In this document: positions 4,901 through 7,900 of the stretch, piece after piece
Layout of the letters: the number at the start of each line of letters is the position of its first letter
Position numbering within the stretch: position 1 is the stretch's first letter
Assembly: GCF_042242105.1 (NCBI RefSeq)
Contig: NC_092013.1
Span: 10,041,618 to 10,105,617 of the forward strand
Source: Pempheris klunzingeri
Lineage: Eukaryota; Chordata; Actinopteri; Acropomatiformes; Pempheridae
Length of the DNA stretch: 64,000 nt
Reading direction: 5' to 3'
Notes under the pieces: model-generated
What the model was told of the DNA's origin: nothing
Database searches by the model: none
Seen by the model: the letters and a program-made list of their open reading frames with translations, nothing else
Made by a program: the position numbers and the translations under genes

Positions 4901-7900
4901 TATTGTGCATAGATTTTGCGCTAACTCACTCCAAAAAGTTATCCAAATTATATTTTGAAGCTAGTTGTCACCTGAGCAGATGTGCATTTTATATCAACAC
5001 CTTAACAGTCTCTGTAAAAGTTCCACTTTTGATGCAATTGATGTATTTAGTGCAGATTTCTGATGGTTATAAAAAAACAGATATTTCTAGACAGAAAAAT
5101 CAATAATATCAAAGACATGACTATCCAGTATGAATAACAGCTCACTGACTCCACTGTGAGTGAACTCAAGTTGACCCACAGATATAAATATAAAACACCT
5201 AAACAAACACTGCAGCTGTATGGGATGTTTCCATCAGAGAGACACATTTTCATGATCACATTTTTACATGACCAGTTCTGTACAACTGTGTTATAAAGAG
5301 CTTATTTGTCTGAAGCTGAGACACAACAGACGGCACTACAGTTAGATTCAGGGTCTGTCGGGAGAGGCGAAATTGTATCGCAGGATTACTATTTCCCTTC
5401 ACTTTCACTCCTTGTGTCCATCTATGGGAACATTCCTGACTAACTGCAGTTGATAATTATTCTGCATCCAACAAGTCAGCTGAACGCGGCAGCGCCACAA
5501 GCAGCAAACAGCGCACAGAACCAGGCTCGGTCAAGGAAGCAGGAAGTGAAGAGGAGAAAGAAAGGACAGGCGAGGAAGAGTTGGTGGCAGTAGGGAGGGG
5601 CAATGAGAGGTGGCATGCAGGTCATTTAAACGCCAAGGCTGAAGGAATTGACTCTGTGCCAGCATCACCTGTCTGTAAACTGTGATGGTGACCTTGCCTT
5701 AACCGAGGAACCATTCCCATCCCAGGCACCCCTTTGTCCCATTCAGAGCTGGGCAAGCCCTCAGGCTGGTTTAAACCAGAGCACAACAGAGAGCTCTACG
5801 CTGGAGGCCTAGCTTATTGTACTGTACTGTGTGTGCTCTGTGTGTATTTGTCTGAGTGTGTGTGTGTTTGTACAGAATGCATACATGTGTGTATATGTGC
5901 TGAAATACAGTAACTCTGTAGTGTCTGTATAATTGCTTTGCAAGCATTTCTAGTGGATGTCCTGTATAAGCAAATGTATAAACTTGTGTTCCCTTGAAAA
6001 TAATCCTATTGAATCTGACATGTATGCACAAAATTTTGCTTAGAAATATTATTTCTTTCCTTTTCACTACCAGGACAGACAAAGATCTCCAAAGAAAAAA
6101 CTGAAGAAATCAAAAAGTCTGAACCCTGAATCATATATAACTAAGAGATAAAAAAAAAATCCCAAAGAAAAGCCCCTTAAAGCTGAACTTGTAAAAGCAT
6201 GTTTCTCAAAGCTTCATGCAGCGTCGATATGTTGTCAAATTAGGCTTGGCAGTCTTAGGGAATCAAATAGTCTTAATGAACAAGAAGGCAGTGTCATAGA
6301 TAGTGAAAATTTGGACCCAAGTATGTAAAAAATACGTGACACAAATCAGATCAACTTTTTTCACTAATTAGTTATTTAAGTTAACCACTGTGATGGCATC
6401 CTTATCTAAAGTCTTCCCCTATGTTATCACATTGTTTTAGACATGAATTTATTTTTCACTTGGGGTAGAAATGTACAAACAGATAGTTGTTTCATACCCT
6501 GATGTGCTGCAGAAGCCCAGCTGTCCATCTGGGACATGTGAGCCCACAAGACTGCCAGTAGACTGCTAAGCCTATCAAAAATGTATTTCTACCATTTTTG
6601 ATTGTCATAAAAACAAAACTAAAACAAAAGAAGGAAGAAAGTCTAAAACATCCTCTTTTTAGAGAGAAAAACAAATGTCAAAGTAATAGAAATAAAGACA
6701 GGTACTAGATAAATTATGCTCAGCCTTAGTGTTTAAATGGGAGTCTCACCTGGAATGACAGAAATTGTTTTCAATGCTCGGAGAACCCTGAACGTTCTCA
6801 GCGCCGAGACATTCCCAAGGTCCACAAACTCTGTTATATATCTGTAACAAGGTAGGATGACACACAGAACAAAACCCCATGACACACAACACACACGATA
6901 ACAACACACACACACGCACGCATGTACGCGCAAGAGCACGACACCAGCACCACCATCGAAGACCAGGAGGGGACACCACGGTGAGAGAGAGAACGCCTGT
7001 CCGACCAGTGGGAAGAAAAGGAAGGAGGAAGAGGAGAGGAGAGGGACTGAAACAAAACCACACCTAACATCAACCCCGTGACTCGCCCACCCGCAAACAC
7101 AAACACCTGGACTGTCTTACCTGGGATAACTGAAATTGTTTTCAAAGCCCTCAGAACCCTGAACGTACGCAGAGCTGACACATTGCCTAGGTTTACAAAC
7201 TCTGTTATATACCTGCAAGGTGGATCAGATACAGTTACTCAGCAGCCATCCCACACAGAGGAAAGAAATAATAGAATGTTACATAATATTTTAATAAGCA
7301 TTATTAATGTGGTATGATGACTGTTGTGGATTGAAGGTGCTGTGGGCATTTGCCTTTAGAGCCTTTTTTTGAATTGTTAGCTAAATTCTCCCTACCAACA
7401 CATAAAAATCATTAAAATGAACACTCGGAGGAAAAAGAATTGTCTGATAAACAGTTTTAAGCCTATCCACATTTTCAGAAAAAAAGAAGAAAGCACGCCT
7501 ACTGCCGGTCAGTCACACATGAATCACTCAGTCTAGTTTTTACAAGCCTGCAAACAGCAGGAGGAACAAATCCACGGACGGGAGGGGGGGGGGCAACAGA
7601 CTGACCCTGAAATAAACTTGGATAGGACATGTGAAATGTTTGATACAACCCATTTTCAGAAAGTTTGGGGTAACTGCTTTGCAATTGTAGTGGCTAATCT
7701 AAATATATGAAAAGTTTGGGGTGGGGAGAGTTTATCAGTAACAACTAGACTGAGCTCATAAAGTTTGCCTACTGCTGACGAAATGCTGTTTGACCTCCAC
7801 TGTAGAGCACAGCTTGTTACTGTGACGGCTCAACTAAACCAAAAACTTATGGTTTGGGGGGGGGGGAATATAGTTTCTATTCTTCCTCATTTCTCCACAT

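Follow-up and report, generated by a model that had tools for sequence, protein, structure and literature searches.

The SCN8A-type 5N/5A exon pair and its relatives in the genome of the fish Pempheris klunzingeri

The window, a stretch of 64,000 nucleotides of the Pempheris klunzingeri genome (NCBI RefSeq assembly GCF_042242105.1, contig NC_092013.1, positions 10,041,618 to 10,105,617 of the forward strand), contains on its minus strand exons 4 to 6 of a Nav channel gene, including two adjacent versions of exon 5 (Table 1). When the final large coding exon of this gene, which lies outside the window (C2:10018.1–10019.4 kb), was used as the query, its best solved match was human Nav1.6 (764 bits), followed by Nav1.2 (635 bits). 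The corresponding gene on C11 matched Nav1.6 with 758.8 bits vs 630.3 for the next structure, and a comparison by eye of 5N and exon 6 of the window, together with the junction alanine, with the solved human Nav1.6 chain showed identity at 77 of 77 residues. Judged from sequence, the window gene is scn8a, the orthologue of Nav1.6 (SCN8A), and one of two fish copies (C2, in the window, and C11), which in zebrafish usually go by the names scn8aa and scn8ab according to the accessible part of PMC12467315.

ARAGORN reported no tRNA genes over the whole window, and Rfam gave no matches over positions 2000–9000 with E up to 1. Two neighbouring, similar open frames in tandem on the plus strand (29091–29657 and 31496–32107) carry Methyltransf_11 domains (E 4.6e-18 and 1.2e-17) and presumably represent METTL7/TMT1-type genes, and a frame on the minus strand (62147–62968) contains a long proline/glutamine-rich repeat and a partial DMAP1-binding domain (E 2.4e-6, just over the cut-off).

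Table 1 Features of the scn8a exon 4 to exon 6 region (positions are those of the window).
Feature	Position	Strand	Borders and remarks	Basis
Exon 4 of scn8a	8385..8513	-	ends ...ATGGC/gtaagt	sequence and reading frame
Exon 5N, Asn at residue 7, 92 nt	7121..7212	-	cttgcag/GTATAT...CCAG/gtaaga	sequence; residues equal those of the solved human Nav1.6 chain
Intron between 5N and 5A, 279 nt	6842..7120	-	alignable in part with the scn8a copy on C11	
Exon 5A, Asp at residue 7, 92 nt	6750..6841	-	gttacag/ATATAT...CCAG/gtgaga	sequence
Inverted repeat with perfectly paired 10-bp arms and a 9-nt loop, 147 nt downstream of 5A	6574..6602	-		C2-C11 comparison
Intronic block common to the scn8a copies	6182..6256	-	holds TGCATG (6220-6215)	C2-C11 comparison
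Intronic block common to the scn8a copies	5614..5662	-	ends in TGCATG (5619-5614)	C2-C11 comparison
Exon 6 of scn8a	2088..2309	-	starts at 2309; 3' end inferred from GT consensus	

Both versions of exon 5 are preceded by AG and followed by GT on the minus strand. The reading frame is set by a split alanine codon, read as GC/G with 5N and as GC/A with 5A, and the resulting translations of 30 residues each differ solely at residue 7, which lies where S3-S4 of domain I ends and is numbered 212 in the solved human chain. An earlier note on this DNA, made from the sequence alone, had assigned the pair to scn8a, placed its two 92-nt exons and described a single Asn/Asp change at the seventh residue; the assignment agrees with the structure matches, the coordinates and borders proved exact, and the change is seen in the in-frame translations. 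At the nucleotide level, the two exons share 75 of 92 bases and have 13 silent codon differences (NG86 dN 0.031, dS 1.11). The silent divergence had also been called heavy, and the 13 silent codons are indeed present, but its level is that of an old divergence rather than an exceptional one: 13 of the 29 codons encoding the same residue differ between 5N and 5A (0.45), against 420 of 981 (0.43) between the window gene and its scn1-type paralogue C24 from exon 5 to the gene end.

Joined in silico, exons 4-5N-6 and 4-5A-6 stay open through exon 6; inclusion of both exons (4-5N-5A-6) leads to a stop two codons into 5A, the break of frame that had been foreseen, and omission of both (4-6) to a stop inside exon 6. 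Because products with both exons or with neither carry these early stops and should undergo nonsense-mediated decay, which would remove them, one exon per transcript would be used and not both. A spacer of 279 nt seems longer than simple steric exclusion would allow, so that regulated choice combined with decay is the likely mechanism. The U1 pairing energies of the two donors are about equal (-11.0 for 5N and -11.1 for 5A), leaving a simple weak-donor model for 5A without support; pyrimidine content is lower upstream of 5N than upstream of 5A in all three genes with an N/D pair. We are highly confident that the window holds the conserved vertebrate 5N/5A pair of scn8a, in which exon 4 would be spliced to one of the two exons, 5N or 5A, and this in turn to exon 6, with products that differ only by Asn or Asp. 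Mutual exclusion and a developmental 5N/5A switch are published for human and mouse (PMC8383430, in its accessible part), and for exon use and timing in Pempheris klunzingeri we infer that 5N would be the early form and that mature neurons would shift to 5A via Rbfox proteins acting on conserved UGCAUG elements downstream of 5A.

Between the two scn8a duplicates, all codon changes in the pair are silent, 9 of them in 5N and 8 in 5A, with 0 replacement changes in either exon, a pattern that upholds the proposal of purifying selection on both exons. One exon of the pair might still be an unused relic that looks intact, given that Nav genes do lose copies of exon 5, as with the C10 gene described below, in which a 16-nt trace is all that is retained of 5A, and with mouse Scn1a, which has no working 5N according to the portion of PMC8383430 available. 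However, neither scn8a duplicate has lost the splice sites, the length or the frame of 5N or 5A, and with the absence of replacement changes this makes a relic very improbable. In aligned blocks around 5N, silent differences from C24 amount to 10 of 34 codons (C2) and 8 of 35 (C11), and in those around 5A to 14 of 34 and 13 of 33, where the blocks extend a few codons beyond the exons and the average silent fractions for the C24 comparison are 0.43 and 0.42; these values are suggestive of silent-site constraint on 5N, possibly as the mark of an exonic splicing code. Three C2-C11 blocks, starting at 10392, 20359 and 26172, have near-zero silent fractions that lower the mean to 0.375; they look like coding exons read in the wrong frame, and they were dropped as candidate intronic elements, their sequence being exon-like.

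A protein search of the genome, with a low-stringency recheck of about 10 kb around each Nav locus (16 kb for C2), recovered 12 copies of exon 5 in eight Nav loci. N and D exons are both present in C2, C11 and C24 and K and D exons in C21, about 1.4 kb apart (L032, 6278-7838); a D exon alone was found in C15, C20 and C17, and an N exon alone in C10. Searches against solved structures, run for C24, C10, C20 and C15 besides the two scn8a copies, placed C24 and C10 closest to Nav1.2 (735.8 and 672.1 bits) and C20 closest to Nav1.4 (546.5 bits), with near-tied matches for C15 (Nav1.2 513, Nav1.4 510.6 and Nav1.5 507.5 bits). C15 and C21 are presumed from their exon sequences to be scn5-type genes, because C21 has a Lys exon, as we take the human SCN5A neonatal exon to have, and because C15_D and C21_D form a weak grouping (0.742) in the FastTree tree; for C15, the presumed duplicate of C21, the Nav locus search found the Asp-type exon only. 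The first exon base is G in all five N/K exons and A in all seven D exons. The donor reads gtaag in the five N/K exons and gtgag in the four D exons with a partner, and gtaag, gtatt and gtcag in the three partnerless D exons.

In the tree of these 12 exons from eight genes, the five N/K exons are set apart from the seven D exons with a support of 84/99, although no inner branch reaches the star of the tool and C21_K is a long branch. Approximately unbiased (AU) tests rejected the pairing of C2_N with C2_D (p-AU 0.0015), so the duplication predates the split of the two fish scn8a copies, and also rejected the grouping of C24_N, C24_D and C10_N (p-AU 0.0385), which argues against an origin inside the scn1-type genes. 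The pair C24_N+C24_D (p-AU 0.102) and a group of all four scn8a exons (p-AU 0.14) were not rejected. The latter would be compatible with 5N and 5A owing their likeness to a tandem duplication or a gene conversion that took place recently within scn8a, as would the identity of bases 2-18 (17 bases) between the two exons in C2 and likewise in C11, where a short conversion tract may lie, and the Ile at residue 2 of both exons in C2 and C11, a position taken by Val in the D exons of C24 and C21. Yet 5N of C2 is nearer to the N exons of C11, C24 and C10 (83, 81 and 80 of 92 bases) than to its own 5A (75), and with the rejection of the C2 pair and a dS of about 1.1 we find such a recent event barely credible. 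An exon duplication older than the split of scn8a and scn1 is the most likely history and the best reading, because of the split in the tree, the rejected scn1-type grouping and the published human exons, SCN1A, SCN2A and SCN8A sharing the same D/N pair in the accessible text of PMC8383430; the fish exons alone do not force such an age.

The scn1-type gene C10, for which the Asn-type exon 5 alone was found (L036, C10:16671000-16680999, 6685-7734), has exon 4, 5N and exon 6, and no D exon was found in the 958-nt intron between 5N and exon 6. Traces of lost exons were sought in 28 comparisons (7 introns x 4 query exons), each set against 100 shuffles. The C10 intron contains, 153 nt after 5N, a run of 16 nt that matches the acceptor and first bases of the C24 D exon exactly, a length that none of 100 shuffles reached (the longest run in 500 shuffles was 13). 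A 12-base run with 5A of C21 was reached by 1 of 100 shuffles, and the other six C10 comparisons were ordinary. Alignment of C24 5A in the same intron gave a score of 16, which 21 of 500 shuffles reached and which is not clearly above them; the exact run alone is. For C15, C20 and C17, 19 of 20 comparisons were ordinary (runs reached by at least 8 of 100 shuffles), and an 8-base run shared by the C17 acceptor and the interior of the C24 5N exon was judged to be chance (2 of 100 shuffles). Three TGCATG motifs follow 5N in the C10 intron (0.79 expected, 4% of shuffles), one of them 18 nt after the exon. All 18 C24 coding pieces from exon 5 onward have a stop-free match in C10, with the 5N and 5A pieces both matching the single C10 N exon and one other piece having a match that covers only 17 of its 35 residues. 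As the gene otherwise looks intact, it appears to be fixed in the neonatal-type form.

Candidate control elements of the scn8a pair were obtained by comparing 40 kb of each copy, starting a little upstream of exon 5 in C2 and running beyond the gene end. Four collinear blocks were classed as non-coding, two of which lie in the intron after 5A and keep TGCATG in both copies, whereas the two near exon 18A do not; these blocks are defined by two sequences only, and one of those in the intron after 5A lies about 1.1 kb from that exon. In the exon 4 to exon 6 introns of C2, C11 and C24, all 10 TGCATG motifs are downstream of 5A and none is upstream, the downstream introns being about three times longer in total than the upstream ones. 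Counts of the motif per intron in these three genes were not above shuffles, and the 5 motifs in the intron after 5A, against 2.67 expected, do not exceed chance either (14% of shuffles reach that number). The inverted repeat is part of the long aligned block in which the exons also lie and has no match to an Rfam family; its pattern, with two loop letters free, has exact genome matches in C2 and C11 only and one further place with 3 mismatches. With two sequences, unchanged arms and a varying loop, there is no covariation to test.

In the part of the review PMC13011093 available to us, Rbfox proteins are described as binding UGCAUG, and knockdown or loss of Rbfox1/2 in mice as lowering inclusion of 5A and 18A. 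By analogy, the fish TGCATG elements would fit Rbfox-dependent inclusion of 5A as candidate binding sites. The conserved intronic blocks could instead be transcriptional enhancers, or act on another exon, and have no part in the choice between 5N and 5A: one of them is a palindrome able to form a hairpin, for which no RNA family is known, and matching a motif does not prove that it is used. We regard this as unlikely, though a serious alternative, since half of the four non-coding blocks in the 40-kb comparison fall in the intron after 5A and both of these keep the Rbfox-bound motif (PMC13011093, same portion). Of the second exon pair, 18N/18A, 18A was found in both scn8a copies (C2:10023.5–10024.6 kb, L023; C11 counterpart in L027), with a partly alignable flanking intron, and 18N was not identified. 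TGCATG begins 34 bases after 18A in C2, with CGCATG at the aligned place in C11; the C2 motif resembles the Rbfox elements reported downstream of mammalian 18A in the accessible part of PMC13011093.

In a tentative reading, to which we give somewhat less than an even chance, the genome duplication of fishes was followed by a partition of the N/D switch between gene copies: the scn8a copies would have kept both exons and the shared elements (the two UGCAUG blocks and a hairpin helping to set the choice of 5A), the scn1-type C10 would have lost 5A and fixed Asn, and the presumed scn5-type C15 would have fixed Asp. Loss of one tandem exon after gene duplication is a known outcome in other genes, as stated in the available part of PMC9741552. 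In the open-licence literature, among the matches listed (titles and starts of abstracts), none dealt with loss of exon 5 in a fish scn1-type gene or with these fish intronic elements, an absence that proves little.

As far as the accessible parts of PMC8383430 and PMC5823708 describe it, the fish pair is the already known SCN8A 5N/5A switch, real but ordinary, and this filing is independent of the age of the duplication. The human SCN8A exons are 92 nt long with D/N at position 7 of 30 (PMC8383430), and the human and mouse pairs are alike in having two 92-nt exons, 30 residues and Asn/Asp at residue 7, with one exon used per transcript there and presumably in the fish (PMC5823708, PMC8383430). 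Human 5N and 5A are, however, reported to differ at two residues (PMC5823708, in its available part), and the fish pair differs at one. The SCN2A (Nav1.2) pair shares the single-residue Asn/Asp difference (D209N; PMC13011093, in part), but is a different gene by the Nav1.6 and Nav1.2 scores given above. The neonatal/adult pair of SCN5A (Nav1.5) occupies the same channel position, and the Lys/Asp pair of C21 is of that kind, with more residue changes (7 of 30) than the one in the scn8a pair.

These results point to an intact SCN8A 5N/5A switch, one of clinical importance, in a fish genome. Reduced there to one Asn/Asp difference, the pair makes fish scn8a well suited to the study of that residue in isolation, and the shared elements downstream of 5A provide testable control sites. 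The scn1-type gene with an N exon alone may offer a natural example of a channel kept in the neonatal form.
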